Source of the DNA: Chytriomyces cf. hyalinus JEL632
Taxonomy: Eukaryota; Chytridiomycota; Chytridiomycetes; Chytridiales; Chytriomycetaceae
Direction: 5' to 3'
DNA: 64,000 bases
Assembly: GCA_025435555.1 (NCBI GenBank)
Contig: JAIWWG010000022.1
Coordinates: 343,133-407,132 of the forward strand
Under the pieces are notes generated by a model. It did not search any database, was not told the DNA's origin, and worked only from the letters and a program-made list of their open reading frames with translations. This document shows, one piece after another, positions 17,838-64,000 of this stretch. Position 1 is the stretch's first letter; each line of letters starts with the position of its first letter. A program made the translations under genes and the position numbers.

Positions 17838-19004
17838 GTGAGAAATGCGCGTCGCTGCAGAGCGATTACCTCCGGGCAGTTCCTCAAGCACAAAAGGTGG
17901 ATGCGCAACAAAAGTTGGTCGGGTTCAAAGTCACGTTGCACCAACGTTTCAAATTTACATAAATATGAATCGAGTGTTTGGTTCCTTCTGGTTGGAAGAG
18001 GCCAGCCGGCCTTCGACGGTGTCGGTGCTGATAAGGTCAAGATCAGCACTGATGGGGATGTTGCGGACTTGAGGAAGAAAGTGCGGGAGGAGAATCAAAG
18101 GATTATCGAAGGAGTGGCTGCGCATTTGAAGGTCTACTCAACCAAGGACGACATCACCGATCCTGCGAATGCGCTCAAAGTCAGGGCGCTGATTGGTGAT
18201 GGAGGAGGGACCGAGGATATGCCGCTGTTTGTCGTCGTGCCGAAAAAGACTCATAAGCGTTCTCTACGGTCAATAGTTCCCGCTTCCGTGGATGTCAATG
18301 TTCATTGGAAAGACGAACCACCAACTATCGATGCACTGAGTCAAGGGTAAATGTTCTTTGTGAATCAATCTGATGCTGTTCATCGCTTCAAATTCTATCG
18401 GGCCACTAAGAAAGCTGGGCTAACATCGGTCATCCCCATTGCCGACAACGTGCTTGGTTTGGCCAAATCGGAGTTTGGACATTGCAAATCAAAGGAGACG
18501 TGGCCCGACGCTGCCACAAGGGATAATTTCCAGCAAACACTCTGCAACTGCCACACGATCGCAATAGAGTTTCACAATGGAGCGCTGTTTGAAGACACAT
18601 TTGATGCTATGATGATCAAGCTTTTGTGTAAGGCGCTGAAGGACGTGTTTGTCATTCAGCCAGCTATTCTATCAACGCCCCCGAGCAGAGTCAGCGACTT
18701 CTTAGATGATTTGACAGAAGTTGCTGGCCCTGTCTTCATTGTGCTCGACAAAATTGAAAAAGCTTTCCACCGTGATATCAACTCTCTTGACGACTTTCAA
18801 CAACGCGAACAGTTTCTCTTCTTCTGCAACGGAATTCTCGACAGTTGGTTCACTATGAAGAATGTAGTCTTTGTTGTGGTTGGACATGCCTCGTATCTCA
18901 ACTACGTTGGGCCGAGACCGTGGTGCAGCTACAAATTCGAGCGTTTGAATACCGCTGCTTGCCTGAACATAGGGGTTGAGAAAAATCAAGGTTTTTTGTG
19001 CTGA
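17838..19004 (+). pseudogene. Crinkler (CRN)-type gene, broken
   Basis: The upstream frame (to 18350) carries a ubiquitin-like Crinkler N-terminal domain, from VWFLLVGRG to MPLFVVVP. After an in-frame TAA at 18348 the same frame resumes at 18351. It encodes the associated NTPase-like region, with VIPIADNVLGL, an F..TLCNCHTIAIEF segment and FIVLDKIEKAF. In the family the Walker-B-like motif usually reads FIVLDEIG, so K replaces the acidic residue here. The obvious ATG near 17965 is one base out of frame with the domain. The frame ends at 19004 without a normal C-terminus. Crinklers are modular effector-type proteins known from oomycetes and chytrids. This copy looks dead. Confidence 0.6.
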
Positions 19005-19331: not shown

Positions 19332-19485
19332 TATCTGGCTTACCAGTCTGACTCGGCTGTTGGTATCTTGCATCTGATATATTAATCAAGAATTGAACAA
19401 ACCATCCAGGTATCTCAGGGAAAATCAGTTGACAGGAACCATTCCAACTGAACTCGGCCGGCTTACAAGTCTGCAAATTCAGTTG
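19332..19485 (+). pseudogene. Leucine-rich-repeat remnant
   Basis: One register near 19409 reads as a classic repeat unit, NQLTGTIPTELGRLTSLQ. A second trace (LTSLTRLLV) sits upstream at about 19340 with a stop between. The surroundings are non-coding. This is a decayed piece of a plant-type LRR gene. Confidence 0.5.
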
Positions 19486-19490
19486 GTACC

Positions 19491-20012
19491 ATGAATGTGA
19501 TGAGTTCTAAATTAGTGACCAAATTATGCAGGTCGCTTTCCTGTCCAGCGAGTGTTTTAATTTATTTTGAATATCTTTTCGAGAGGCAGTGTATTTCCGA
19601 GCCCCTGTTCGCAGATTGTTCATACATGCGAAACCAGAAATGGTTGAATTTGAATTTGGCTTTATGTGACATGGGAGTGATGTTCTGGTTCGAGACCATC
19701 AGCTTCATCACCACCTGCTCCATTGTGATCAGTGACCAATATACAATGTCGCGTGTCCGACAATCAATTGAATACAACAAAGAGAGAAGAAATGAGAAGC
19801 ATTTGAGGAGGTCTGCGAGTGAAAAGTAAGGATTTACGAGATTGTGTTTCAAAGTGGGCAGCAGGATTAAGGCGGCCGGCAGCTTCATCATTCTGCATTC
19901 GCCAACAGAACGCGTCCAATCCCTGTGGCATTACGCAGAATACATTCTGGGGTTCGGATAAGCTCGATTTCCTATGCTGCGAGGCGGCCATATGATATAA
20001 CACCCCCAATCT
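19491..20012. other. Intergenic, no supported gene
   Basis: An open frame at 19491-19829 (112 codons) has an aromatic, hydrophobic middle but no family feature and no splice-supported extension. I do not call it a gene. Confidence 0.4.
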
Positions 20013-40824: not shown

Positions 40825-41622
40825 AACGGGCGGCCAACTCTTGTCCAGAAAAGACCCAACAATCGAGCGGTAATCAGCAAGCTGAAGACAAATTCCAGCT
40901 CCGTCACCGTCTCTCCCATCCTGATACTAAGTTGGAACCCTGCCGTTTTTCGACACTCGACCACACACGCAGACGGCAAACCACTTTCAAATCGGGTATC
41001 CATCAATACACTCAAGGTCATACGACATGCCGTGTCTCAAAAAGCGCTCATTTTGTCCCTCGTGAACGATAAAAAGTTGATTGTCTCACCAACCAGTCCA
41101 ACATACCCGCAAGAATCCATAATCCGGGATTCCTTCACCGGAATTATATCCCTCTTTTCACAATTGAACGTGTCTCCGCACCGCCTCATTTACATTGCCG
41201 CGGGATTCATGTTCCAACCCCAAAGCGCACTGCCGTATGGCGGTTCGAAAAGAAACCCGGGTTATCTCGAATACACTGGCCGCGATGTGGATTCGCTACT
41301 CTGGTTCTTGGTTTCGGCGGCCTTCAAATGGTATTGGAGATATCGCGGCAGGGAGGGGATTGATTTTTTAACCCATTCGATGAATCACACCCTTCTGCTG
41401 CATGGAAATGGGGAGAAAGATTTCCTGGATGAAATGGTAATGAAGGGGATGATGAAGGCTGGGCATCTTGAGCGGAGCAAATCAACGGTGATTCCGGAGA
41501 ATTTGCGTTTTGTTCGAGAGAAAATGGATGGCAACGAATTCGTCAGCACGAACGGCGTCCAATTTACCCCCGGTCGAAGAAAAATCCTGTTGGATCGAGG
41601 TTGCGGGGAACCTGATGACTAA
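40825..41622 (+). CDS. Unknown-family protein, copy 1 (start not found)
   Basis: The frame is open from 40825 to a stop at 41622 but contains no usable ATG near its beginning, so a 5' exon is missing from my model. The conserved core is shared with the minus-strand gene at 59012-59740: RLIYIAAGFMFQP, LPYGGSKRNPGY, FKWYWRYRGREGIDFLTHS, and MKGMMKAGHLE. Core identity is roughly half. I recognise no domain. Sharing this gene type between the ordinary region and the viral-like region is notable. Confidence 0.55.
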   Translation, partial: NGRPTLVQKRPNNRAVISKLKTNSSSVTVSPILILSWNPAVFRHSTTHADGKPLSNRVSINTLKVIRHAVSQKALILSLVNDKKLIVSPTSPTYPQESIIRDSFTGIISLFSQLNVSPHRLIYIAAGFMFQPQSALPYGGSKRNPGYLEYTGRDVDSLLWFLVSAAFKWYWRYRGREGIDFLTHSMNHTLLLHGNGEKDFLDEMVMKGMMKAGHLERSKSTVIPENLRFVREKMDGNEFVSTNGVQFTPGRRKILLDRGCGEPDD

Positions 41623-47570: not shown

Positions 47571-47940
47571 ATGCCCACCTCAACATACGCCTGTGTGGGC
47601 ATCACAATGACAGTCCTGACGTCTCTTCACCTCGCAGTCTTTGTCATCTTCATCAACTGTCTGCAAGAAAAGCAAGCGCGTTCCCTCTCCCGAACAGGCC
47701 TCCCCACGCTGTTCACATCTTTCAACATCAGCATCTTCACCATGATTGCATCGCTTCTCACGGTATTCTGCGCAGAAATCGCCTCAACTTTGGTACTCGA
47801 CTGCAATATTACAATGGGAAAGACTGTGGCCAACATTCTTCTCATATCCAAAGCGATTGGTTTCATGGCAATAACACTTGGCTACATAAGCTACAGCTAT
47901 GGCCGTGCAAAGGGCATTTTCGAAAGGACACTCGACTCTG
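47571..47940 (+). pseudogene. Truncated paralogue of the 7TM-like membrane protein
   Basis: From the ATG at 47571 the frame gives three or four hydrophobic helices (GITMTVLTSLHLAVFVIFI, FNISIFTMIASLLTVFC). It continues to YISYSYGRAKGIFERTLDS, matching the HFSYHRGKELFDQ region of the protein at 41886-42866. At about 47935 the similarity ends abruptly. The sequence turns into a minus-strand fragment of a primase-type gene, and the frame stops at 47990. The remaining helices are missing. It is divergent from the channel gene. Confidence 0.6.
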
Positions 47941-48258
47941 TGTCATCAAGTCGCGAAATTCCGCCGGGAAAACGCCGATTGCCGTTTTGACTGTAGCCGC
48001 TGGATTGGAGGTACACTGCGGGCTCGAGCACTTTTTCGAGACGGCAGCTGCTCAAATGACAAGGTATACGCGATTGCTGGAATGCTTGCGCTTCAAGCCA
48101 GGATAATACGTGTCGTCCAATTCGACCAAGACACTTTTGGGGTACTTTTTGAAACTCGGGATTTCTTCTGGCCGGTACATGAGAATAGTCCCCAGACCGG
48201 CTTTGAGAACAGGTCTTGATTGGTAAGCGGCCCATGAGTTTGGTCGTTCGGTGGCCCA
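47941..48258 (-). pseudogene. Fragment of a viral-type primase/helicase gene
   Basis: One minus-strand frame from 48258 to 47941 matches the central part of the gene at 61151-63831. Shared blocks are VLKAGL / VLKTGL, SFKKYP / AFKKCA, VELDD / FELDN, KRKHSSNR / QRKHSSNR, KKCSSPQC / RKCSSPQC and KTAIGVFPAEF / KTAIGVFPADF. One in-frame TGA lies at about 48053. The fragment is fused directly to the truncated 7TM-like gene. It reads through the point where the 63-kb copy has an intron-like insert, without any insert. No promoter or ends of the original gene remain. Confidence 0.7.
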
Positions 48259-48447
48259 GAAAGACTCTCAGTTTTTGTCTTAGTGAATGAAAAAGGATAT
48301 TCTCAGTCGTGTTGTCTTTTCTATTTTCATTCATTGCTGTCACTGTTCTGAGTCATCGAAGTCACTCGCTGGGCAGGAAACAGCAGCAGTGCTTTTTATT
48401 TTTAATCTCAGCAGTGAGCACATGCGTGGCGACAAAGACACCCCAGT

Positions 48448-48486
48448 ACATCCAATCCATCCAATCCATCCAATCCAATCAATCAT
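48448..48486 (+). repeat. CCAATCCAT short tandem repeat
   Basis: About four units of CCAATCCAT/CCAATC lie at the 3' end of the small gene on the minus strand. Confidence 0.7.
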
Positions 48487-48879
48487 CCCAAGTGATTTCT
48501 GTTTCATTTGTGAATGCAATGCGAACTTGGAGGTCTTTGGCTGGTCCGTTGTTGCAATGGGATAGACGTGGTTCCATCTGATCGCGATAAATCCCTTTTC
48601 CAGGCACTCCATGACGATGTTCATTTGGGCACTCAGGCTGACCTGTACAGAATGCACATCGATAGTAGAAGTTGATCCCAACAACCCTTGATGCCACTAC
48701 ATAGAGGATACTGTCAAAGAAGTAAAATTGGTCCTGCAATAATCATTCAGCCATCGGAGTATGAGTCAGTTTCCCTTGCATATTGTTTCTCTTACATCTT
48801 CTAAGGCTTCCATGTCCGCTATATCAGGCTTGTGTGTAATGGCAACATGACGATGATGCTGAGCAATATGATGGGTCAT
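48479..48879 (-). CDS. Small protein of 112 residues, one intron
   Basis: Exons 48879-48796 and 48733-48479 are joined across a clean 62-nt intron (GTAAGA..TTGCAG) in phase 0. The product starts MTHHIAQHHRHVAITHKPD, is His-rich at the N-terminus, and then has an aromatic segment (DQFYFFDSILYVVASRVV). A possible metal site follows (CAFCTGQPECPNEHRH: C-x2-C-x6-C-x4-H). I recognise no family. It is flanked by the primase fragment on one side and the ribonucleotide reductase pseudogene on the other. Confidence 0.5.
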
Positions 48880-49245
48880 TTCAGGTGTTTTTATTTATTC
48901 AAGACTCAATATTAATAATGCTTTGCAGACCACAATTTGCTCTTTTTTGCTCCAGAGCACAACTGCTGGATGACCACCACCACCCAGTACTGGCAAGTCC
49001 CTTCGCTCCAAAAATGATTTGAGCACCCGACTGTTATCTGTCCCGTCGAGGGCTGTGGAGTAAACATCCCTGGATCACAATTGCATATCGTAAACGGAAA
49101 AATACACTAAAAGGCTGAATTGAAACGAGATTGGAATCGCACTCGTTCACATGGCATGGATTCCGAAGTGGGCTCGAATGTTGGGAAATAAAGCTGTTTT
49201 ATTCCAACATTACGACAACAAAATCAACTGGAACATAGAGTACAA
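48880..49245. other. Intergenic, no gene seen
   Basis: About 365 bp between a small gene's start and the 3' end of the reductase pseudogene. No coding signal seen. Confidence 0.5.
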
Positions 49246-51112
49246 TCACTCTCCGTCAGCACCAACAACAGCAAGTTCATCCACCTTCCTGATCGGGGCG
49301 ACGGCAGAAGAAGCGCTGTTGTTGTTGTTACTCACTGTCACCTGAAGCGGCGCCGAGGGTGGCGTCATCATGAGGTAGTACATGCCCGTCTTGAGCCCGC
49401 GGTCGAATGCGTAAAAATGCATACTCATGATCTTCTTGCACGTAGGGTCAGCCAAGAACAGGTTCATACTCTGCGACTGGTCAATGTACACGGCGCGATC
49501 GCTGCATGATCGATGACCACTTTCTGAGAGATCTCCCAGGACGTTTTGAAGAGGGCTTTGACATCTGCAGGGATTTCGGCAATGTTCTGGACGCTACCAC
49601 GGTCTTCGATGATGCGCTGCTTCATGCCCTCGTTCCACAGGGCGAGTTCCAAGAGACTGTGGACAAGATGGTGGTTGATGATCTGAAACTCACCCGAAAG
49701 CGCCTAGCGCTTGTAGACATTGCTGTTGATAGGCTCCGTGGCCTCAGGGTACCCGATGATTTGCGCCGTGCTGGCGGTGGGCGTACACATGGTCAAAAGA
49801 CTGTTGCGCACTCCATGCTTCAAGATCCGATCCTTCAAGCCATCCTAGTTCCACATTCCTGAATGCACGGTGGTTGTGCCATGCACCTTGTCCCACAAGT
49901 CAAATTGGAACTGCCCTTTGCTGAAGCCAGATCCTGCGTATGAGTCATACGGCCCAAATTCCTGTGCCAATTCACAACTGGCTTCAAGTGCGCCAAAGTA
50001 GATTGTTTCGAAAATGTTCCTGTTGATGACACGGGCTTCAGCAGACGTGAAAGGCACCTTCATCATTATAAAGACGTCGGCGAGTCGAGAGACACCCAGT
50101 CCCAATGGACGGTGATGCATATTGGAGTATTTGGCTTTTGCGACTGGGTAATGCGTGATGTCAATGACACGATTCAAGTTTTTTGTGACAATCTTTGCTG
50201 TTTCGTCAAGCCCGCGATAATCGAACGCTGTGGTGCCGACGCGGACGAAACTTGGAAGTCCAATGGAAGCAAGGTTGCAAACGGCCGTCTCGGTGTCAGA
50301 GGTTTACTGACAAGGCCTCAAATTCGGGACCATGTGCTTCAGACAAGCCAGGCGCTTCTTTGGGGCACACCAGCATCCAATCCTCACCCGCCAAGACCTT
50401 TTTCATGAAGAGATCTGGGATCCAGAGTGCATAAAACAAGTCTCTGGCGCGTAATTCCTCGATGCCGGCTGGTTCTTTGAGTTGCAAGAATTGTAAGATT
50501 TCCGCGCTTCCTGGACGCTTGTTGGCCTGGGTGACAAACTTGACAGACGCGTTGCACACGCGCAACACGGGAACTATGCCTTCACTCTGACCATTTGTGC
50601 TATGAATCAAGCTGCATGGCGCGAATATCGTGCATGCTGATGCCAATCCCACCGGAGTGCTTAGAGATGACGGTGGTTTCCTTCAAGAGATCATAAATCC
50701 CTTCGATGGAATCCTGGGTTTTCGTGGCAGTCAAGAGGAAACACGAACTGAGTGCCTCACGCAAGGTTCCTGCATTGAACAAGGTTGGCGTGGCATGGAT
50801 GAACTGCCGGTTTGTATAATCAATTTATCACGACGCTAAATCGGTCTGAGGTCTGCTTGTGGAGATTGGAGACAACAAGACGAGCTGCGAGTTTTGCATA
50901 GTCGGGATGGATGGACTGCAACGCAATTGCGTCTTCTGCAGCGAGCTGGTCGAGTTGGACAGTAGTGACTCCAGAGTACAAACCCGCAAGCACTTTGATG
51001 GCAATTTTGGCAGGGTCCACGTTGGGAAGTTAACACAGAGCTTTTCGAAGCGATGCTGAATTTTCTCAACATTGACTTGTTCATGAGCCAGGCTGCGCTT
51101 GACGACATACAT
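49246..51112 (-). pseudogene. Ribonucleotide reductase large subunit, inactivated
   Basis: Pieces of class I R1 appear in order on the minus strand: an ATP-cone start (MYVVKRSLAHEQVNVEKI), [91 protein letters not shown]-like HHRPLGLGV, PTASTAQIIGYPEATEP, and YIDQSQSMNLFL. Lesions: register changes near 51030, 50640 and 49510, and a TAG at 49706-49704. About 100 residues before LFNAGT are lost. The YLEPWH-type block is lost. A deletion near 50300 removes the region with the active-site Cys (NLCxE). The C-terminal redox Cys pair is absent. The gene cannot make active enzyme. It could derive from a large DNA virus or the host. Confidence 0.85.
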
Positions 51113-51179
51113 TGATGTAAGTTTTTAAGTTCTTGAGTATTTTCTGATGTGGCAGCAGCTCTTTTTATACGTTTTTTGA

Positions 51180-51614
51180 ATGCTTTTTTCCTTCCAGAAA
51201 GACTCCATTTTTGCTCACAAAACATTTTTTTGGGCAACAAAGAAACAGAGGAAGAAAAAGGGACCAATGCCGCTGGACCACACGCAAACAAAAGTGGATA
51301 CCCACTTTCTCGAAACGGGGTGTAACTACAACACCCGGCTAGCCAAGCTGGTTTTTGCGGCAATTGACGCAATAGAATGCATGGACCGCATCTGGGTTGC
51401 ACGTCCCACACTGTCCCACGCGATGGCGAATCTGATTGTCTATCTAGGACACGAACAGTTTGTGGTGACATACACACAGGTCTTCCAAACGACAGACACG
51501 TCTTCTCCCAATCGATTGCCATGTGATGGATGTGGTTACTGCGGCGATGTTGACTTACTGATGAGCCCAGCTGAGCAACGACGAGGTATTCAAATGCCTA
51601 AAGCAACCTGGTAA
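51180..51614 (+). CDS. Hypothetical protein upstream of the helicase
   Basis: A 144-residue frame directly precedes the helicase frame on the same strand. It contains DHTQTKVDTHFLETGCNYN and a Cys-rich spot (LPCDGCGYCGDVDLL). It may be the N-terminal part of the helicase protein in another register, since the two frames are separated by about 10 nt. No domain recognised. Confidence 0.3.
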   Translation: MLFSFQKDSIFAHKTFFWATKKQRKKKGPMPLDHTQTKVDTHFLETGCNYNTRLAKLVFAAIDAIECMDRIWVARPTLSHAMANLIVYLGHEQFVVTYTQVFQTTDTSSPNRLPCDGCGYCGDVDLLMSPAEQRRGIQMPKATW

Positions 51615-51621
51615 TCATGAT

Positions 51622-52607
51622 GGACAAGCGACTTACAAGAGTTCAGAAAGACCCTGTTCTTCATCAACATCGTGTCGCCACAGATAGTTGACGCGCGACG
51701 ATTTTACCATCACTTCCCGTCAATGTCTCGCACCCAACTGGATCAAATTGATTGCCTCAGCCACAGTATCCTAAACCATCGCTGCTTTAAAACGATATGT
51801 TTTCACTTTGCTGGGGAAATCATGGTTCATTCACAACTGCAACGTAATTTGGACGAAAACTGGAACCTTCTCGAATTCTCGAACGGTGTGTACGACCTTG
51901 CGCAATCAGAATTTCGAAATGGTCGACCAGAAGACATGCTGTCATTTTCGCATGGGCACCCACTTGACATCAAAGTGAATGCAGGTACTCAAGCAAGCAT
52001 TCTGAAATTTCTGGAAGAAGTCATACCCGACGCAAGCATGGTGGAAACATTGTTGCTCACGCTGGGGTCGATGCTCTCACAAAAGCCCAAACCAACTGAT
52101 CCAAAAGTACTGGCACTGCATGGAATGGGATCAAACGGGAAAACGACACTGATGAATCTGATATCATGGACATTTCATGGGCACCAACTGGATACACAAA
52201 AAGCTAATGTGCTGGGCTGGGGGTTGACATCGGCCGAATGGCGCCCTTTTCCTTGCATGCGCGTGGGTCAATGCGGATCCCCGCTTTTACCGTTTGTTGT
52301 TCATCGACCTGGCAAACGAGTAACATTTGCCGAGAAATTTCCGCTGCGTCAAGCACTCGACATTTTTGAAAGTTGCCGGGGGTCGTCCCACTTGATCATA
52401 TCCTCAAGGGCTCCGATAAATGGAAACATGGACGACACCGGGATATCGAACAATTCTGATCAAGAACGCATCCCACTTTCGGTGGTACATATCGAAATGC
52501 CATTCAAATTTCGGGATGTAATACACCGACGAAATGCGCCGACGCGATCCACAGTGCATGAACCGAGTCTGCGACTGGGCGCCTCAATCTATGCTCTTGC
52601 TGATTGA
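51622..52607 (+). CDS. D5-like (SF3) primase-helicase, C-terminal part
   Basis: The frame is open from 51622; the first ATG-type start is uncertain (a GTG at 51672 is in frame). It holds a D5-N-type motif (LLEFSNGVYDLAQSEFR), a Walker A (LHGMGSNGKTTLMNL), a Walker B-like region (GKRVTFAEKF), and a strand resembling the SF3 sensor (SSHLIISSRAPI). A late block (RIPLSVVHIEMPFKF) also matches the family. SF3 helicases of this type unwind DNA at viral replication forks. The sequence is strongly diverged from the second copy at 61151-63831. It lacks the acidic pair usual after Walker B. An N-terminal primase part was not found. Confidence 0.65.
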
Positions 52608-52639
52608 ATGGAACTGCATTCATCGGGTTCGAAATCCCT

Positions 52640-53773
52640 AGTACAAGCGTTTTCTTGACTTTGTTGACTTTCTTGACGTTGTTGGCGTTCTTGACGTTCT
52701 TAATTTTTTGGATTTGGACATACTGGACTTGCGCAACTTGGTTGACTTGATTGAGTTGTGGGTGAACTTGGTTGACCTTCTCCGTTGCTGGACATGAGGG
52801 GTGAGGCAGACAGCAGGCCAGCGAAAATAAACTGGTCCATTATTTGGAGATGGGATTGTTGTTTTCTTTGACACGCCTCAAGCTTTCGCTGCAAATCTTG
52901 AAGTTTCGCGTGAGTCTCAAACTCTGGAACAAACCTGTGTATAACAATGGTCGTCGCAGTTGTGGTGCAGTGTCATATGGAAGGGTCTGTGTGGAAGCCG
53001 TGTTCGTAGCGAGAGACCTCTGTACCTGTGACTGCTTTGATTCATATGGTAGGGTCTGTGTGGAAGTCGCGTTCGTAGCGAGAGACCTCTGTACGTGTGA
53101 CTGCTGCTGCAGCGACTCCTTCAGAACATCGATTTGACGCTTCAAGCTTTCAATTTCAGATTGCAATACTCTATTTCCGGCGACAACTTCTTCTCCGGAT
53201 TGAGTAGTATCCCCCAGGTTTTGTTTGACTGCTGCAATGGTTTCTGGAGAAAGGTTAGCTTGACGCAGAGCAGCCTCCACGCTCGATAACGTGAGTTCAG
53301 CGGCGCTTGGTGCGAATCCTGGGACATTTCCCAAGCCAAGATTCACGAATTCTTGAGCTATGGAATTGGGAGTCCAAGTGCTGATTTGTTCCTCTTTGTC
53401 CAAGAGGGTGTCGAACAGCAGTTTCATTTTTGAAACATCAACCTCACCATTGGACGATTTCAGTTGCGCAAGACAGACTTGATAAAGTTTACCGTTTTTT
53501 TCAGCCTCAGGGCGACTGGCAGAGATGACCTTTTCTCCTGCATTTTTTTTGTTTTCAATTGCCCTTCCATGAATGCCAGCTTCCTCGTGCTTTTTGAAAA
53601 CATTGGTAGCGTTCAAATTTGGTTTCATGGTGGGCAATCTCTTCCTTCAGCTGCGTTATGTCATCTTGCTTGGTTGAAATCAGGGGAGCCTTGCTGAGAA
53701 CGGAGTCCTCAATTGTTCCAAGTAGTGTTGGACACGCGTCCTTGATATTTTTTCTAAATTCAATTGGGATCAT
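52640..53773 (-). pseudogene. Coiled-coil protein with internal repeats, frameshifted
   Basis: Three registers appear to form one protein. 53773-about 53600 gives IKDACPTLLGTIEDSVLS..DDITQLKEEI. 53600-about 52930 gives FKKHEEAGIHGRAIENKK and IESLKRQIDVLKESLQQQ. 52930-52700 gives LQDLQRKLEACQRKQQS. The second part contains two copies of a unit around QVQRSLATNTASTQTLPY. The tail after 52800 is a Val/Asn/Lys or Ser/Thr repeat depending on frame. The coiled-coil character is clear, the family unknown. Register changes near 53600 and 52930 suggest decay, though short introns cannot be excluded. Confidence 0.4.
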
Positions 53774-53872
53774 GTTGTGTCCACGAAAAAAGAAGACCTT
53801 AAACTTTTTCCAAATTCAATTGGAAGAAGCAGTGTCCTTGAAAAAAGAAGACCTTGCATTCTTAGACAAAAG
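53757..53872 (+). repeat. Imperfect 57-bp tandem duplication
   Basis: Two adjacent copies share AATTCAATTGG, GTGTCC and GAAAAAAGAAGACCTT, at about 53757-53813 and 53812-53872. Confidence 0.6.
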
Positions 53873-53873
53873 A

Positions 53874-54427
53874 AATCCCCAACCGATTCGCAAAGAAATG
53901 TCATGGCCGTCATGACGCCCAAGCGAATGCGCCCAACAGACTTCGTGGACAAGAACGACAATATCATGGCCGTTTGTTTATGGCCATCCGTCATATTGGG
54001 TCCACAGTTGGCCAACAAATCCTTTTTTCTTCCATGCACGGTATACGCAAAGTTGACTCGCCAAAACTGAACAAAGGATCATTTAGATTCTAAGTGATTC
54101 GCGTCACCGGGAATGGGGCACACACATCAAGCGCAGTGTTTTCGCAGACGTCCCTTCTTTGCAGATTGGGATTGCGTCATGCGACATGCGCTATGCAACC
54201 AAATTTGAGGGTTTGTCAGTTTACCGCATCTGTCGGCCATGACTTGGGATTGTTGGCAGCCAGATTCGTGCACCTGTGTTTTTGTTGGTATACTGTCAGG
54301 TATCAGAGGTTTGTTCATCGATTGGGGGACGCAGTTTTTTCGAAAATAAAATTGGGCTTCTCCTCTGTGGCAAGGGACAATAAAAAAAAATCTTTCAGTC
54401 TTTGAATGATTTTTTGTGGATTTTTAA
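53874..54427. other. Intergenic, no supported gene
   Basis: Open frames occur on both strands, but none carries a recognisable feature. Confidence 0.4.
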
Positions 54428-56544
54428 ATGATTTTCCTGTGTTCGAAAGAGTTTTCGGAACAGAACGAGTTCAAATTCAGAATGCTTGGGTCAACAGCAG
54501 CAACAACCCCCGAAGACTTCAGCTTTGCTTCCGACGACGAACTTCGAAATGCCGACGAACGCACACGCACTCTTCCAGAGAGCGACGACGATCTGCGTGC
54601 AGAGAGCAACATGCTACAAGCACTTGAAGATGCTGTTGGCGCAGCGGGGAAGAGTCCGCAGAAAAATGCGAGGGACAAGACGGAGGCAGCTGCTTTGGCC
54701 AAGTCTAAAGACCCACACTAGGACGAGCGTGAAAAGAAAAAGACAATGAAGGAGGGTTCTCTCAACTGCACGTACGGAAAGAATGTCAATCACGGGTCAG
54801 TCGCGCAGCTGGAATGGATGATTCGCCAGCATAAACTTGTGATGGATAAACCGACCTCAGCACCGCCGGTAATAATGTGAATTCTGTTCAAAATGCAACA
54901 ACTCTCACCAAACACATGTATTGCAGATAATAACGACCCCAATCAGTGCGGCGCGAATTGCTGACAGAGAGCCAAAGCTCCACAGCTACTTTGGAAAAGA
55001 GCTGTATCGATTCGCACCTTTCCGTCAATACCCCACGTTATGCGGACCAAATTTCACAGAGTGCCCACGCTGTGGGCGCACGGATTCATGGTGCGCGAAT
55101 GGATATTCTATCACTTTTCGGCGTGTTGTGGGGCTCTCGAAGCGGTCATTCGCGTATACAGCAAAGTATCGATGTGTGAGGGCTCGAACGGCCGCGGATG
55201 CAGTAATGAATGGCAAGCTTGGGATGAAGAGATGATGGCAAAGTATCCATCTCAAGTTCAACATGGTAAAAAGTGCTCATTACGCGTTTTCAACTGAAAT
55301 TTACTTGCTTCAACAGAATTCCCCTTCATCATCACGCCTAAGTGGATGATAACAAAGGAACTTCTAAACTTTATTCTTGTGTCGCAGCATGTAATGGGAA
55401 TGTCTCAAATTTATCGAATGTTGCGTGGTTGGAACGATTCCCTTTTGTGTTTGCCTCATGTTTCTAACAATTTTTCAGCTATGTACTTTCACACCTTCTT
55501 AACAGACATGCACGTGTACTCAGACCATTTGAAACAGTACGCGAGATCAATTCGCAGGACGCAGTCTCCGGCTGAAGCCGCTGCTTTTTTGAAAACGCAC
55601 GTCCCGTTAATTGGCAAGCACTCGTCAACACTTTTTGAGCTGTGTACCAACACATACAGGTAAATCAGAACTTCCATACATGACGCACTACTAAAGTTAA
55701 TTAATAGGCATGATGGGGCATGGCCAAGTCTTGATTTCTTGGATGAAGTTTGCAGGAAGCAGTTTGAGCGCGTCATAAAACCGATTGCTGATAGAGTACA
55801 ATCCAGTGTTAGTGCTGAATACCTCGCGTTTGATACAACGAAAAAGATAACTAGCAAGGTTCAAGTAAATGGATGCCCTGTTTTTGGTGGTTTGGAGATT
55901 GCATGTAATGAATATCACGAAATTCCGCATTGGGTATTAACTCAGCATTGAATCATTTATGGGATTTCTCCTTATTAACACAACTTCACAGGCATTCCGC
56001 ACATCTGAAGACAGTGTCGAATTTGAACGATCAGTGAAGAGCTTGATTCACTGTCTGAAAGGTTTTGGGTGCAAACTCAAAGGCATCTTTTTGGACAATT
56101 GCTGCACCTGGGGAGATGTTTTCAGGCGCGTTTTCTCAAGCCTGCTTGAGGATGAGCAAAAGCCTCAGATTTTCCTTGATTGTGCCCATTTTTTGATGCG
56201 CTTCACTGAGGCAGCGAAAAAGGACAGCCCGCTTTGGGACTCGTTTCGACGCGATTTGTCGACAGCCGTTTGTTATTCACGGCGTGCAGGTCCAAATGAA
56301 GGGGGGTCATTCTCAGACATAAAGAAGTCGAATTCTTCAGAACTCAGAGCAGCTTCGAAACGCCGTTCAGACACGAGAGGCAGCTGGCAAAGCCCGGGTT
56401 CAGTTGGCAAAGGTGCGAAATTGTTTATTTTTCATTCACTTCAAAACTGAATTGGTGTTCACAGCTGCCCGTCAAAGCAAATATATGAACCCCGTGAGTG
56501 CAATGCCGAATTCTCCAGTTCTGCCTGAAGGGTCTCTTGTCTAA
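54428..56544 (+). pseudogene. DUF6729/DDE-like transposase gene with lesions
   Basis: Exons read as 54428-54868, 54927-55265, 55317-55427, 55479-55659, 55708-55933, 55992-56412 and 56465-56544, with introns of 48-58 nt. An acidic, disordered N-terminus leads to a zinc-ribbon-like FTECPRCGRTDSWCANGY. Then come FPFIITPKWMITKELLNFI, an RNase-H-like core (YLAFDTTKKITSKVQVNG, GIFLDNCCTWGDVF, IFLDCAHFLMRF) and a basic tail. The layout matches fungal DUF6729-type proteins as I know them. These look like DDE transposases: D in FDTT, D in LDNC. Lesions: an in-frame TAG at 54719-54721 with coding on both sides, and a 2-bp GT slippage near 55173. Confidence 0.6.
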
Positions 56545-57443
56545 GGGTCATCAATTGTTGCAATGCTTCTTCTAACAAAACGCGAACAACTCGTCTGGAA
56601 TGAGTCGATTGCTGTGGGAAAGCTCGGTTCTAAAAGAGGTGTCGCGCAAGGCACTTTTGCAGAGGTCAACAAACAAAATCAAAACATCACCCGATGAAGC
56701 CCGCTCACTCACCAGGCAAGCCTCGTTCTCCTAACTTACGCGTAACCCACCGATGAATTATGATCTGGGATTACGCGCCGCTGCTTTACTATTTTGAGCG
56801 CCAGTCACCCTGGGGCCCAAAATGCGGATTCTCAGTCGTGTTAATTCCAATACTATTCAATCTTTTCTTCTTTATAACTCATAAACAGAGCTCGAGCTGC
56901 TGTTCGGCCAAGTTTGCTTGCTTCAGCAAATGAACACGTGCTTCTACATACCCTCCAACCTTCGCTGCAAATCAACGGACACAGTGTCGATCAAGGTCAC
57001 GTTGATTGATGTCAGCATAAGGATGTCTAATCGCAAATATTGAGGACATGCGCACGTCCATCATCGAATTTCGCACTGACTCTAAGGGCGAAAGATCCAT
57101 AAAACTGTCTGAGGGCTGCGCGTGAAACCTCCATTCCAGAATGGATGTTGTGGAGTCATTGACGGAGCCATATGCGTTGGGGCACTCCCAGCCGTGACAC
57201 GCGTGTTTGCATGAAAAGACGCAAGGATATGATGGAATTGATGCGAGTGTTGCTGAGAAGGTGGGCAAAGTTTTCCTGGTTGCACTGAGCAGCTGAACTT
57301 CACTCGACCCTTTGCGCATTGCTGCATAATTGGCGGCTACCCTGGGGTAACCGCCGATTTTTTGTTGGTTCTCGCTGTTTCATGATTGTTTCACTTTTGT
57401 CCACAAAAAAAACAACAACTGAAACACATACTCACACGCGTTA
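56545..57443. other. Intergenic, no supported gene
   Basis: About 900 bp. A minus-strand frame at 56972-57319 contains a few Cys/His residues (KHACHGWECPN) but no family feature. Confidence 0.4.
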
Positions 57444-57505
57444 ATGGACTGGTTAACACCATACGCTAGCACTGGCAATCTATCTAAACCGAGCAACAAA
57501 GTCAT

Positions 57506-58730
57506 GTGGATAGGGAGCTTGCATTGCGCATCAGCGATATTTATCGAGCCTGTTCAAACGGCATTCCGAGTGAAGAAGTCTCCGCCGCCATCCGCTCAAC
57601 TCTTGATGATCTGTGCACCGACTCAAAACGCGGTTTGCCCAGCTCTTCGAATCACATAACTCAACGACGCCTGAACATTATTGGATATGCGCGCAAATCC
57701 AACGAGTCGTCGACAGGAAATTCAATATTGGAACAAAAGAACATGATTCGTGCCTATTTCCCCCCCGACGGATCTCGCCGAGGCTTTTTGTTGTGCAGCA
57801 CAACTCCCTTTTTCAGCGACATTGTCTCGGGTATCAACTGCAATCGGGCGGGATTGGATCAGGCACTGCTCGAGCTTCTTTCTGACGATAGCTGCGATGG
57901 CCTAGCAGTGCTGAATATGGATCGACTTTCTCGCTCATTGACGTTTGGCAATCAAATCCTTGACCGAATCACGAAAGCGCGGAAGCATTTGATTGTTGTC
58001 AAAGACGATCTTTTCTTTGGGCCGACGATTGATAAAAATGAGGAGGTTAGTTGCCATTGTCGCAGTTGGAAATATTGAGCATTTATTTTGGTTGCAGCGT
58101 AACAATTTGCTGCTGCTGCTCATGAAGCTGGTCTTTGCTCAGATTGAGCACACTATCTCCGTTAAGCGCTCTGAAGATCACTTGGAATCGCGAATAAAAA
58201 ACAATTGCTGTCTCGGATTGAACGCCGGATTTGGAACGCATTATCGCCACGTTCGCTCGTACGAAGTTCAGCCAAAAATGAACGCGTTTCAAGAAAGCGG
58301 CCCGAAAATTGCTGGCAATGATATTGTGGTGGAGGAGTGCGACTCGGAGTCCTTGCAGGCACTGCATGCAATCTGCCACTTTGTGGCCTGTCGCATACGC
58401 GGAGAAAAGAAGCCAGCAAATTCTGCTTTTCATCACATCAGCCGTCTCGGAATCTACAGGAATCACAGAGAAATAAGTGCGCATCCTTCCACACAAATCG
58501 AAAGCGTGAATAACTGACAATTCTTAACAGAGGATATTGCACAACAGAAAAAAGGATTTTACGGCAATCTGTGCAGCTTTGTTTCCCAACACTATGTTAA
58601 TAGTAACCGCTGCCGGCTCGACCTGCTTCAAAACAAGGTCCTCGGATTTTTTTCGCACGGATTGCTTCGCCACAGTGCCGACCAGATGGAAGAAGACACT
58701 CCGCTTCTTTCTGAGGACTGTCACGAATGA
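57506..58730 (+). CDS. IS607-type serine recombinase with spliceosomal introns
   Basis: Exons 57506-58045, 58098-58476 and 58531-58730 join to 372 residues. Introns are 52 nt (GTTAGT..TTGCAG) and 54 nt (GTGCGC..TAACAG). The catalytic domain has IIGYARKSNESSTGNS, with Ser in the YARKS motif, an SILEQ helix, and LAVLNMDRLSRSLTFG, the DRLxR motif of serine resolvases. A linker helix follows (LMKLVFAQIEHTISVKRSED), and the C-terminus may bind DNA. No in-frame ATG is near the start; GTG is at 57506. An ATG frame at 57444 lies one base off, so a lesion or an upstream exon is possible. IS607-type enzymes are known from bacteria and giant viruses. No TnpB/Fanzor partner is seen. Confidence 0.7.
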
Positions 58731-59011
58731 TTTTTCAGCGAAATCATTTCTCAGCCCCGTTTCACTTTCGAACCATTCATTTCAACACTTAATTTATCAA
58801 ATTTTTCAGCGTATTCGATGGCCAGTCCCCATCCCAGAGAGGTCTCCCTTGCCGCTATTTTGGCCATAATCGTCCCTTATTATGGCTGGCCAAAAAATCT
58901 AAGATTGAGGGATGAAAAAGTTGGAAAAAAAAGCAAACCATGTGACCCCCAAAATGGACCCCGACACAGCACATGGACGATGGTCGATTTATTTCCACAC
59001 AGACACGGCGA
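58731..59011. other. Intergenic
   Basis: Short gap between convergent genes; nothing recognised. Confidence 0.4.
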
Positions 59012-59740
59012 TCACGAGTCCTCTGTATAAGGGTTGCAACGCTCCACACCTCCCTCTGTCTTGACACCAGTTGTGAAAAGTGCCAGCCGCGGTGTAAACG
59101 CAACCGCAACTTGATTTTGAGGTGAAAACGCATCTTGATTCTGAGGCGAAAACGCATCCGGCGTGTGCCGCAACTCTTTTGGGATCGTGACTATCCCAGT
59201 CCACGCAATATGTCCCGCCTTCTTCATCCCCTTGAGCATCAGCTCGTTCAACAGGTCTGCGTTCCCCGCAAAGTGTAAGTTTCGGGCATTGTTGACGCTG
59301 TGAGTTAAAAAGTCGATTGCGGTCCTCCCGCGGCATAGCCAGTACCATTTGAAGCTCGCTTCTACAAGGTATCGAAGTAGAGACGGTACTGTGGTTCCGA
59401 CATAGTCCACGTATCCTGGTTGGGTTTTTGGACCGCCAAACGGCAATGGTGATGCTGGGTTGAACATGAGACCGGCAGTTATATAGATGAGGCGGCTTGA
59501 GGATACTGCGGTATTTGAGAAGAAAGACATGATGGCAAAAGAAGAGTTGTTGATGATGTATGACTGGGTTATTGGCGGTACAACAGAGTCCCAAACAGAG
59601 ACATGGAGACTGCCGGATGGAGAGTGTTGGGTCAAGACAAGAGTACTTTTCGGATTATAATAGAATATTGTCCGTTCGACCTTGACGGACTGCTTTGCGG
59701 ACCGGGGCAGACCTGAGGATTGTGTAAGGCGGCACAACAT
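59012..59740 (-). CDS. Unknown-family protein, copy 2
   Basis: The ATG at 59740 opens 242 residues with no intron needed. The conserved core (RLIYITAGLMFNP, LPFGGPKTQPGY, FKWYWLCRGRTAIDFLTHS, MKGMKKAGHI) pairs it with the gene at 40825-41622. Near the C-terminus a short unit (DAFSPQNQ) is repeated in tandem. An N-terminal segment (LHVSVWDSVVPPITQ) resembles the start of the copy 1 core. No known domain. It lies inside the viral-like region, convergent with the recombinase gene. Confidence 0.65.
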   Translation of the reverse strand: MLCRLTQSSGLPRSAKQSVKVERTIFYYNPKSTLVLTQHSPSGSLHVSVWDSVVPPITQSYIINNSSFAIMSFFSNTAVSSSRLIYITAGLMFNPASPLPFGGPKTQPGYVDYVGTTVPSLLRYLVEASFKWYWLCRGRTAIDFLTHSVNNARNLHFAGNADLLNELMLKGMKKAGHIAWTGIVTIPKELRHTPDAFSPQNQDAFSPQNQVAVAFTPRLALFTTGVKTEGGVERCNPYTEDS

Positions 59741-60550
59741 GGCAGGTAATTGATTGGCTAGGATTACCGCGGCGGTGTCGTTTTTTTGAAGTTACAGTCA
59801 TGGCGGATCGGCCAACAAGGTTCATGGCTCTGTCGGAATTTTGTTTACTTCGTCGCCACTATTCACAGACCTTTTTATGTTTGTCTGCTAAATTTGGGTT
59901 TCCGCCCGCCAGCAGCGAGCACAAACTTCATTATCACCGGCCAACCGCGCGCATGCGACAAAAGTTGTCAGAACTGAATTCGGTCTCGTGCACCATGAAG
60001 TACATTGGAGACCATTCCTCTGGATGTTCCGGCACACACATGATCACGTTATGTCTCAGATCGAGATCCATTTCACGTTCATTTCACAGGGTCATTTCCC
60101 TCTACTTATTGCGCTGGTCAAAAGAGAGCGCGAGCGACGATAGAAGCCACTGAGTTACTGATGGATGGGTGGATGGGAGAGAGGTTTATTTGACACTCAA
60201 CTTTTCGCTCATTTTTGCGATTCAATCCAAACGCTCAAGGGTGCTGTTCCTGCTTTGTTTTCTCCAACTCGAGTGCCAGACTGGGTGAGGTCTCCATCAC
60301 TGACAAGGCCGTGGCATGAATCACGTAGACAGGACAAGTGTCTCAGAAGAATTTGGGAACACTTAAAAATTTGCCGCACTTAAAAACGTTTTGGGCCAGG
60401 CCGCAACAAGAAGTGTTCGACACCTCGAACAGCTGTCAAAGGTTGTTGACCCATTGAAACTGGATATGGATGGGCACTTGGTGTGGGGGTATGGGGGTCA
60501 CATTGCGCACCAGAAAGACGTCAACGTCAACACCGAGCGTTGTCTTCACA
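59741..60550. other. Intergenic, no supported gene
   Basis: A plus-strand frame at 59800-60153 (117 codons) has no recognisable feature; otherwise nothing seen. Confidence 0.4.
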
Positions 60551-60739
60551 ATGAATGCATCATTGGGCCCTGTGTACTTGGACGTGTATGCCAACAAGGT
60601 CAAGGCCATCAAGAACGACAAGAACCTCGCGTACCAAACGGGTATTGAACCATTCTACATGATTGCTGGAGTTCTCATTTTTGCTGGGTCCGTTTATCTT
60701 GTCTGGAAGGGCCGGCCAAGGACCGGGACGGGCCGGTAA
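60551..60739 (+). CDS. Small single-pass membrane protein, 62 residues
   Basis: The ATG at 60551 opens a frame with a charged N-terminal helix (YANKVKAIKNDKNLAYQ), one membrane segment (FYMIAGVLIFAGSVYLVW) and a basic end. The size and layout resemble small organelle-membrane subunits, but I cannot name one. AATAAA lies at about 60859. A GC-rich run of GGCCGG follows the stop. Confidence 0.4.
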   Translation: MNASLGPVYLDVYANKVKAIKNDKNLAYQTGIEPFYMIAGVLIFAGSVYLVWKGRPRTGTGR

Positions 60740-60888
60740 GGAAATCATGTGGAGGTACCTCTCGCCGGCCTTACATTCCACTCGCCGGCCCCAGGTTCCC
60801 CCAATCGATTCCATGTTTCATTCGTTTAAAGAAATCGACTTGATCGCTCGCCTTCGAAAATAAAACTAATAGAGGTTGACCTTTTGCC

Positions 60889-61090
60889 AAGTCCAATCCA
60901 AGTCCAATCATTTATCGTGTGTATGACCCTACATGAAATACAAGTCCAATCGCGAAATCGCGTGGGGAGGGCATCTGATTGGACTTCTTGAAAAAATGAC
61001 AAAATATATTGAAACAAACACACAGAGAAATTCGAAAAGAAGTCCAATAAGTCCAATTCTGGTAACCCATACGAAGAAAGATTGGACATA
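60889..61090. repeat. Cluster of AAGTCCAAT direct and inverted repeats
   Basis: AAGTCCAAT occurs at 60889, 60900, 60942, 61040 and 61049. Its complement ATTGGACTT is at 60978, and ATTGGAC variants lie near 61082. The pair at 60942 and 60977 (AAGTCCAATC / GATTGGACTT) could form a hairpin with a 25-nt loop. Confidence 0.65.
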
Positions 61091-61150
61091 GAGGTGTTTT
61101 AGACTACCCCACACGACCGCAAAAAATTGGACATTGATTGTCCAAAAAGC

Positions 61151-63831
61151 TCAATCAAGTATTTTAACCAACGAGTGGTTCCTCACTCCCGCATCGGTAA
61201 CGACATAAATTCTCAGATCACGTTTATGGCCCTCCGCCAAAGGAAAATGAACATTCATTCTTTGGCCAAACTTCCTTTTGGACAGGACACAGTTGATGCC
61301 GTTTCTCCTGCGCCATTCATAGTAATCTTCTCTGGCCGTCTTGTGTTGGATATGTACTCCTGGAGTAGCGACGACGCGCTCCATAGCCCAGCGGAGAAAG
61401 TGATCGTTATCTGCACGCGTTTCTTCCGCCTTGACCAACATGGCTTTCGTTGGATGAAGACCCTCAGAAAGGTAAACATTATACCAGTCGAGCAGCAGCA
61501 ACGGGACCCCAGGTCTTGACCTCCTCCTTCAACTTGTCATCGATTTTGCGTTCGTGTGGTCGTTTGGGATCCTTTACGAACGAATGTGGAAAATCCTGAA
61601 TTCGACACCGTCTCCAAACGGCTTGGTCCTGGGCATCCATTTTGGGGATGGCGTTTGTTTGGAGGATGATCGTGTGTTGTGGGGAAAAGTTGATATCCTT
61701 GTTGGAAAACAAGTAACAACCACACAGCCAGTCGTTGCCAGTTAGCAATTTCATGATGCTCGATTTGATCGAGACGGCCTTGTCTGGCTCCGAACCCATG
61801 ACGACACGTTTTCCTTTCAAGTTGAGAATCTCCGGAATCGGACTATTTGCGCTCGCTGGTTCCGACGTCAATAAGGTGGCAGGGATGCTGTGGAAGTAAC
61901 CCGAATGAACGCCCAAAGTAGATGTTAAGAGTTCTGCGAGGATGCCTTTTCCATTTCCGCCCGTACCAGTCCAAATGGTGAATATCTCCTCACGATTGTA
62001 TCCGAGTGCACTGGCCAAAAACTTCAGCATGTATCTGACTTCGGTCTTGCCCGCGAAGATGGAGTGCAAAAACCCAATAATTTTTGCCTGAATATCCAAT
62101 TCCACTTCAGTTGGGAATGGATAGCCAGTGCAAAGAGAGAGGTTGTCATCAGTCTCCGCTGGTCGAAAGTGTTCCTTGTTCAAGTCGTACACACCATTTG
62201 AGAAGCCGAGAAGATTCTTCTTTGCGTCGAGATTTGTGAGAAAGTCCGGATTATTTTCGACAAACTCATCCGCTGCCATCTGTAAGATGCACGAAAGATC
62301 CTTGTGTTTCAGCATCTTTTTGATATTATTCAAGCATGTTGAGCGGGCATCTGACAACTTGACATCAGTTGTGCGAAGGATTTTTTGCAGAACTGACTTA
62401 TTGGAGTAATGGACGCCACCCACTTTCCAGAAGCCGAATGGAACGCCCACCAAGAGGACATGGAATCCGTGGACTGAACAACAGCGCAGTGGGTCTTGCC
62501 AAGACACAACATACCCAATATCACTGGCTAGACCGTTGAAACTTTTGAAAAGGGCTTGATTGAGGACGTCATCCTCAACAATTGGCTCAATTTTGTTGAA
62601 CTGAACATCCATATGAGAGTGTCGCCATCGCCATGAAAATGGTTGACGATGGTGGTGGTGGTGGTAGTGATGTTATTGTTGACCTGAACAAGGTACTGCG
62701 ACAGCAAGGAGAACGTTTCTACAGGAACTGACATGAATACTGCATTCGACTCGGGAAACCTGAATGAACACGTGTCGGATATTATCTTTAACCCCTGAGT
62801 CGACGTTTGTGCAGTGCCCGGTAGCCAACTGTTGTGATGTTCGAACCGCTGTTGAGCGACGATATCCGTAACAGGCAAGCCGACATCCGCAAGTGGCTGT
62901 ATGCCAGCATTAAGAAGTTGCTTGACCACATCTTTGAAGTCGGCCGGAAAGACACCAATTGCCGTTTTGACAGACGACTCCTGGAGGTCCTTGCACTGAG
63001 GGCTTGAGCACTTTCGAACGACCGCAGTTGCCGAGATCACTACAAACGCTCGGTTACTCGAGTGTTTGCGCTGCAGGCGCTGGCAAAGTAGGTTGTCCAA
63101 TTCGAACACAATGGTCTGGTGAGAGCGAAAGCGGCGTCAGTTTAAATGAAGTGGGTAGACGGGGTGTACGATACGTACATTGGCACACTTTTTGAATGCC
63201 AGACACTCCCTGGGATGCAGGTCAAGTTGTTTTAAACCGGTCTTCAAGACGTCAAGGTCGTCGGCACTTGTAATGACCGAGTACGCTCCATCGCCCGGCA
63301 CGGAAACAGGTGCGGAGCCGGTGGTGGGCACCACAGGCAATAAAGAATTCGACCAGGTCAATTGAGGCCAAGTGTCCGGGACGTACTGAAAAAGGAAATC
63401 CTCCATTTCCAAGTTGTCGCAGCATGGAAGCAAAACACGGGCATCCGCAGGACTCTTTGATTTCCCCAAGCAGTTCATTTTCCTTCCTTTCGAGTATACC
63501 GAGGTGTCAAAGAGAGGGTTTGAAAGGTGGTCCTTGATGTCCAGAGAACAATCGGGATGGACTTGAATATGCTTGACGACCGAACTCAGTTTGTCCATCG
63601 TTGTCCACCCGCGTACAGCCGGTAGGAGACCTTAAAAGCGCGGTGGCGGGACGCGATGGCAATTCATGTGCTGTCCAACACAGGCACAAAGGCGGCAGCC
63701 ATGGAGCGCACCAACACCTGGACGATTTGATACTCCTGGTCCACCGACGGAGCGAGTGCCTCTGAATCAAACTTCAGGTCGAAGTCAATGTTTCAGCGGG
63801 GTCCGGAACAGCAAGAACTCGCAGAGATGGG
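61151..63831 (-). pseudogene. Viral-type primase-helicase (AEP primase + D5 SF3 helicase), decayed
   Basis: On the minus strand an archaeo-eukaryotic primase domain is followed by a D5 helicase. Primase landmarks: IDFDLKFD (metal-binding DxD) near 63780, AFKVSYRLYAGG near 63620, and DTSVYSKGRKMNCLGKSK near 63510. A KHSSNR/CSSPQC block follows. Helicase landmarks: LLGFSNGVYDLNKEHF, Walker A TGTGGNGKGIL, GKRVVMGSEPDK, and FSPQHTIILQTNAIP. Lesions: a register change near 63788, TGA at 63666-63664, and register changes near 63605, near 62615 and at 61503-61505 (a C run). A GTACGT..CACCAG intron-like insert spans 63178-63116. This domain fusion is typical of nucleocytoplasmic large DNA viruses, where it primes and unwinds replicating DNA. 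Confidence 0.8.
63116..63178 (-). other. Intron-like insert in the primase-helicase gene
   Basis: A 63-nt stretch with donor GTACGT and acceptor CACCAG splits the coding block between AFKKCAN and the following FELDN in phase 0, and it contains a stop. The related fragment at 47941-48258 reads straight through the same place. Coordinates are given in transcript direction. Confidence 0.6.
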
Positions 63832-64000
63832 GATACATCACATGAGATTCGTTGAACTGGTCGAGGGATCATTCAAGAGCGCCATTCGCGATGGCATGGG
63901 CGAACTGCGGGACGAAGAGCATGCTGAGTTGACAAAACCCGAGTCACATGTGTACAGCGGGTTTTGGGCAGTGTCAGAGAGACGTTTACAGGACTGGGTT
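63789..64000 (+). CDS. Partial open frame at the right edge
   Basis: An ATG at 63789 opens 71 codons to the window end with a charged, protein-like composition (RFVELVEGSFKSAIRDGM, ELRDEEHAELTKPE). It overlaps the start of the primase pseudogene on the other strand. No family recognised; it may be a shadow. Confidence 0.3.

Follow-up and report, generated by a model that had tools for sequence, protein, structure and literature searches.

What is the origin of a group of broken replication genes at the end of a contig of the chytrid fungus Chytriomyces cf. hyalinus JEL632? The stretch analysed here, referred to as the window, comprises bases 343,133-407,132 of contig C134, which is the final 64 kb of this contig (407,132 bases, in a 37.8-Mb assembly of 242 contigs). 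Three pieces of a primase-helicase and one broken gene for the large subunit of ribonucleotide reductase (RNR) span window positions 47,938-63,922. We consider it likely that this locus, a decayed giant-virus-type primase-helicase together with a non-host RNR, is a remnant of large DNA viruses that became integrated in the chromosomes of this fungus.

The three primase/D5 pieces, already proposed in an initial annotation of the window, were all recovered by tblastn. The piece at 47938-48210 on the reverse strand corresponds to the UL52-like region of an AEP-D5 primase-helicase; it was found with P0014 (56%), P0013 and the C51 copies as queries, it has one in-frame stop, and its nearest copy among the compared loci is on C127 (about 72%). 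At 51669-52172 on the forward strand lies a D5 helicase N-terminal piece with the Walker A region (PF08706, E-value 8.2e-7). The third copy, at 61169-63922 on the reverse strand, is an AEP-D5 primase-helicase pseudogene of almost full length, interrupted by stops and frame changes and identified by Pfam, tblastn, tree and fold; the contig, and with it the window, ends 78 bases past its alignment. The Pfam cut-off for D5_N was passed by two of the three pieces (E-values of 8.2e-7 and 1.4e-7). The RNR large subunit pseudogene is at 49249-51112 on the reverse strand (Pfam E-values down to 3.9e-45, and tblastn), and its alignment is divided into six segments in several frames. It is interrupted by 4 in-frame stops, and two gaps in the alignment span about 90 and about 63 residues. 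The E-values of the primase/D5 and RNR matches are far beyond chance, and the presence of the reductase and the decay of these genes by stops and frame changes were as the initial annotation had described.

To which family the primase-helicase belongs is seen best from an intact relative of 1052 codons on contig C51, in which the order of domains is AEP_C962R, a UL52-like match (just under the cut-off) and D5_N. By sequence, the nearest solved structures to this protein were poxvirus D5/E5 (3.1e-6) and C962R of African swine fever virus (ASFV) (1.1e-3). In addition, the open piece of the window at 61482-62672 was folded unaltered (mean predicted local distance difference test score, pLDDT, 75.2; predicted template modelling score, pTM, 0.70). 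Among viral models, the fold was matched best by D5 of Bodo saltans virus, Yellowstone Lake virophage 5, Gaeavirus and Heterosigma akashiwo virus, and among solved structures by the ASFV PrimPol and poxvirus D5. The likeness to ASFV C962R and poxvirus D5 thus includes the fold of the window piece and, for the intact relative on C51, an AEP domain that precedes the D5 helicase, whereas the identity over the folded piece is only about 17-24% and the window copies are broken.

A tree of 43 primases, in which the figures for the chytrid clade cover those sequences that could be placed, gave the same answer. Fifteen chytrid sequences, the 61482 piece among them, formed one clade (support 96/94), and their neighbours were one metagenomic AEP_C962R protein and one IMG/VR sequence (95/95). 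The P4-type phage primases and IMG/VR sequences formed a 19-member group (100/99) apart from the chytrid clade; the scan of IMG/VR with the primase alignment A1 had kept 80 loci, which on reading were mostly of the phage type. A P4-type phage/plasmid primase was considered as an identity for the window gene and was not supported: the match to TIGR01613 was narrowly below the cut-off, and the 61482 piece was separate from the phage sequences in the tree. By domain order, tree and predicted fold, the primase-helicase groups with large DNA viruses and not with the P4-type phage primases. The chytrid clade consists of three lines, two of which hold both Chytriomyces and Rhizoclosmatium, and the diversity of the chytrid primases therefore predates a single insertion. 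The first residues of P0017, the metagenomic AEP_C962R-D5 protein adjoining the clade, resemble a GIY-YIG nuclease. Single-protein scans of IMG/VR, which reach close kin only, gave no confirmed relative of P0017.

The primase-helicase is not confined to the window. At least 10 D5_N matches were found in the JEL632 genome, on 9 contigs, and a relative of the 61-64 kb copy with 94% identity is present in a further assembly of C. hyalinus (P0005; the match covers 37% of the query). Such a spread raises the question whether we are looking at a once-viral gene family that is now spreading or kept alone in chytrids, perhaps by means of a serine recombinase or a TnpB/Fanzor-type element, so that the locus would consist of mobile-element remnants. 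The number of matches speaks for this, as do the sharp ends of the block common to the C51 and C238 copies. Directly downstream of the C51 primase-helicase, at C51:36791-37135, we also noticed a TnpB/Fanzor-like C-terminal end, read from its zinc-finger and DRD motifs, and the common block stops just before it on C51; in addition, P0008 begins like a recombinase and continues as a D5 helicase (label by reading). On the other hand, RNR accompanies the primase pieces in three of four places, and penton, major capsid protein (MCP) and polymerase genes are also present in the genome. No recombinase copy occurred in the D5 loci compared, the TnpB-like C-terminus of C51 used as a query gave nothing in the window, and common ends across D5 copies were not found (the base-by-base comparison covered C51 and C238). 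We therefore regard this explanation as quite improbable.

The window does contain a serine recombinase, at 57488-58075 on the forward strand, which has a C-terminal catalytic domain (PF00239, E-value 6.4e-11). It has a 95% copy on C180 and parts on C46, C121 and C156. It had been called an IS607-type recombinase in the initial annotation; the recombinase itself was confirmed, but the IS607 label is weakly supported, as that model, yet the best among the NCBIfam models, reached only 24.7 bits where its cut-off is 110.

The RNR raised the question whether the window carries a degraded copy of the gene of the host. The host has a spliced RNR gene on C203 and C222, in two nearly identical copies. 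The window copy is much closer to an intact, single-exon RNR of 799 codons on the 698-kb contig C210 (C210:35272-37671), to which it is about 90% identical in DNA, and the spliced copies are about 50-57% identical to the C210 protein in their main exons. In trees of 50 and 75 sequences, the C210 RNR was part of a 26-member clade (100/100 and 100) of metagenomic proteins, other Chytriomyces and one Blyttiomyces helicus record, and the spliced copies were outside it. One of the closest RNRs, P0039, is on a metagenome contig of 140,950 bases. Judging by these comparisons, the window RNR is distinct from the spliced gene of the host. Among the matches listed, identity reached at most 55% in IMG/VR and at most 58% in prokaryote genomes (best 80 of 592). 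Non-host RNR was found at four places, and in three of them (the window, C210 and C87) the distance to a primase piece is no more than about 3 kb; near the RNR on C232, no primase piece was found.

It could still be that this RNR is a cellular gene, either an old eukaryotic copy or one acquired by horizontal transfer, which merely adjoins the viral primase pieces. In the 75-sequence tree the clade joins eukaryotic RNR1 (95) and not the IMG/VR sequences, it includes the record from Blyttiomyces helicus, and no IMG/VR sequence among the matches listed exceeded 55%. We find this unlikely all the same: the C210 gene is an intact single exon and the C203/C222 copies, at about 52%, are spliced, and the RNR is linked to primase pieces in three of four places. 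We also counted against it the LAGLIDADG or intein domains in 6 of the 120 listed RNR relatives. The linkage to the primase pieces suggests that the RNR may be of viral origin; the tree leaves it outside the viral sequences.

Genes typical of large DNA viruses were found on other contigs of the genome. C42 bears an MCP together with a P11-like minor capsid protein and a polymerase of family B. The MCP, which is the single match to PF04451 in the genome and is not in the locus, matches capsid families of nucleocytoplasmic large DNA viruses (NCLDV) and structures of the type of Paramecium bursaria chlorella virus 1 (PBCV-1). C51, which carries the intact primase-helicase, also has a gene similar to the PBCV-1 P1 penton (6ncl, E-value 2.2e-4); penton-like matches to this gene number 8, on C51, C189, C182, C84 and C53, and C84 has a polymerase match as well. 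On C182, a relative of the window frame at 52843-53646 sits 2.4 kb from a penton piece. That the pieces come from a virophage or a Polinton-like virus, and not from a giant virus, is very improbable. The primase-helicase of a Yellowstone Lake virophage was the second-best viral fold match, but the MCP fits NCLDV families and PBCV-1-type structures and is accompanied by P11 and P1 partners, and no virophage is known to have an RNR. In the region C51:21000-40999 we also observed a WD40 repeat frame, an N-acetylglucosamine (GlcNAc) glycosyltransferase (PF11397, E-value 3.5e-84) and long frames that appear fibre-like on reading. Chytriomyces is listed, in the available text of PMC11571054, among the eukaryotes with homologs of a PBCV-1 glycosyltransferase.

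Do these sequences belong to the fungus? The rest of the window holds frames with eukaryotic domains (C1, C2, MHYT, ricin-type lectin and the Crinkler N-terminus), and C134 (407 kb) also bears many other genes, eukaryotic domains among them. The contig that it shares with genes for eukaryotic domains indicates that the locus sits in fungal DNA. C42 also appears to be fungal DNA, because it has a stretch in common with C238 (88%; a retroelement by reading of its frames). Contamination, or DNA from viruses of algal prey, would be another source of viral sequences that are not insertions; C42 and C51 are short (69 and 63 kb), and algal prey was raised for two other fungi in the accessible text of PMC5294986. 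However, C134 and C210 bear many other genes, C42 shares its 88% stretch with C238, and other assemblies of Chytriomyces and Rhizoclosmatium contain relatives, which makes this explanation scarcely credible.

How often such insertions took place was approached by comparing copies. Around the RNR, about 4.5 kb of the window are collinear with C210, and C210 is without the D5 piece that is kept in the window at 51723-52562. Between the two RNR copies, the synonymous divergence (dS) was 0.18 and the nonsynonymous divergence (dN) 0.044, i.e. dN/dS 0.24 over 621 comparable codons; for the primases of C51 and C238, the values were dS 0.048, dN 0.007 and dN/dS about 0.15 (829 codons). Copies that were dead before they parted should give a dN near dS, and since dN is well below dS, the copies presumably diverged while they were working. 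Because copies at different places probably parted while functional, more than one insertion is indicated. Genes of related viruses would be the simplest source of such copies; functional duplicates kept in the fungus would give the same dN/dS picture.

The explanation we favour is that related large DNA viruses inserted at different times into chytrid chromosomes. In the living virus, as far as the families allow one to say, the primase-helicase would initiate replication of the viral DNA and unwind it, with deoxynucleotides supplied by the RNR. After insertion, stops, frame changes, deletions and insertions of transposons would have broken up the locus.

Several results weigh against this explanation. 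No capsid, polymerase or packaging genes were recognised in the locus itself. The A32 packaging ATPase (PF04665) had no match in the genome (2 controls matched, both of them prokaryotes), and VLTF3 (PF04947) had none either in this genome or in any control genome. The IMG/VR scans with single proteins, by which close kin alone are reached, gave no confirmed relative of the C51 primase, the C42 MCP or the C42 polymerase. In the primase tree, the short 51621 piece branched, unsupported (36/46), at the base of the phage side, and the score of the 61482 piece against TIGR01613, the model of P4 phage/plasmid primases, was a near miss (105.4 bits; cut-off 108.7). The position of the RNR clade beside eukaryotic RNR1 and away from the viral sequences belongs here too. 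Finally, the G+C content at 48-64 kb (47.6%) does not stand out from that of the adjoining 18-48 kb (46.3%; 51.2% at 1-18 kb); composition was uninformative and was dropped as a sign of foreign DNA. The initial annotation had interpreted the locus as a possible virus remnant, to be checked by phylogeny and by a search for hallmark genes. This interpretation is supported by the separation of the D5 clade from the phage primases, by the separation of the RNR from the spliced host copies, and by the viral hallmark genes elsewhere in the genome, some of which lie beside relatives of locus sequences; no further hallmark gene was recognised in this stretch, A32 gave no match in the genome, and the RNR was not placed among the viral sequences.

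Other features of the window were also recorded. A short dispersed repeat at 52287-52690, identified by sequence comparison, is common to C68, C93, C51, C182 and C210, and a stretch of 118 bases at 54098-54215 matches, at 96% identity, the flank upstream of the primase-helicase gene on C51. The initial annotation had pointed to several orphan genes. This holds for the open frame of 268 codons at 52843-53646 on the reverse strand, whose only relatives in the genome search were on C210 and C182, but not for the frame at 59015-59791 on the reverse strand, which belongs to a fungal gene family with 36 matches across the genome (34 of them without an internal stop) in which no Pfam domain was found. 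A viral nature of this frame was thus ruled out, and it lies outside the viral material; a second member of the family is at 40825-41619 of the window. The region at 54876-56447 on the forward strand is probably a decayed DNA transposon that was inserted later; it was recognised from a match to DUF6729 at 54876-55232, which is weak (17.9 bits, under the cut-off of 27), and the remainder by position only. A thymidylate synthase match at 55298-55660 (17.3 bits, cut-off 24.3) was taken as chance. The Crinkler N-terminal domain match is at 17838-18347 (25.4 bits, cut-off 24.6), and beside this frame, at 19337-19540, there is a short stretch of a repeat unit of about 123 bases which forms tandem arrays at C238:38998-41754, C50:57788-59050 and C51:42570-43057.

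The locus adds to the endogenous Nucleocytoviricota already known in early-diverging fungi. In Rhizophagus irregularis, a 1.5-Mb endogenous region related to Asfarviridae has been described (PMC10640383). As in Chytriomyces, genes of Nucleocytoviricota are inserted in an early-diverging fungus, but the Rhizophagus insertion is a single, large and continuous block with few transposons, whereas in Chytriomyces small decayed pieces are distributed over many contigs. According to the available text of that report, the Rhizophagus region is without MCP, D5 and RNR, all three of which are present in the Chytriomyces genome. NCLDV core genes were also reported in Gonapodya prolifera and Allomyces macrogynus (PMC5294986), likewise zoosporic fungi, where they form small islands surrounded by genes of eukaryotic type. 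Allomyces also has a D5 primase-helicase, although it was reported near that of Heterosigma akashiwo virus; these are other fungi, and RNR is not mentioned in the accessible text of that paper. In the literature searched, outside which most subscription journals lie, we found no report of Nucleocytoviricota insertions in Chytriomyces.

The sequences may have a common source in an unnamed lineage of large DNA viruses that repeatedly infected chytrids of the Chytriomyces-Rhizoclosmatium group, with a primase-helicase clade of its own and its own type of RNR (at most 55-58% among the IMG/VR and bacterial matches listed); the locus would then be one of several graves of these viruses. We hold the arguments for and against this proposal to be about evenly balanced. 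The finding is of importance since in 2023, according to the available text of PMC10640383, fungi had no known double-stranded DNA (dsDNA) virus. Capsid, penton, polymerase, primase and RNR genes of one virus type, intact as well as broken, and with kin in a second genus, indicate in which host lineage one could search for such a virus, and the significance would be larger if the primase and RNR clades do belong to an unnamed lineage of chytrid viruses.

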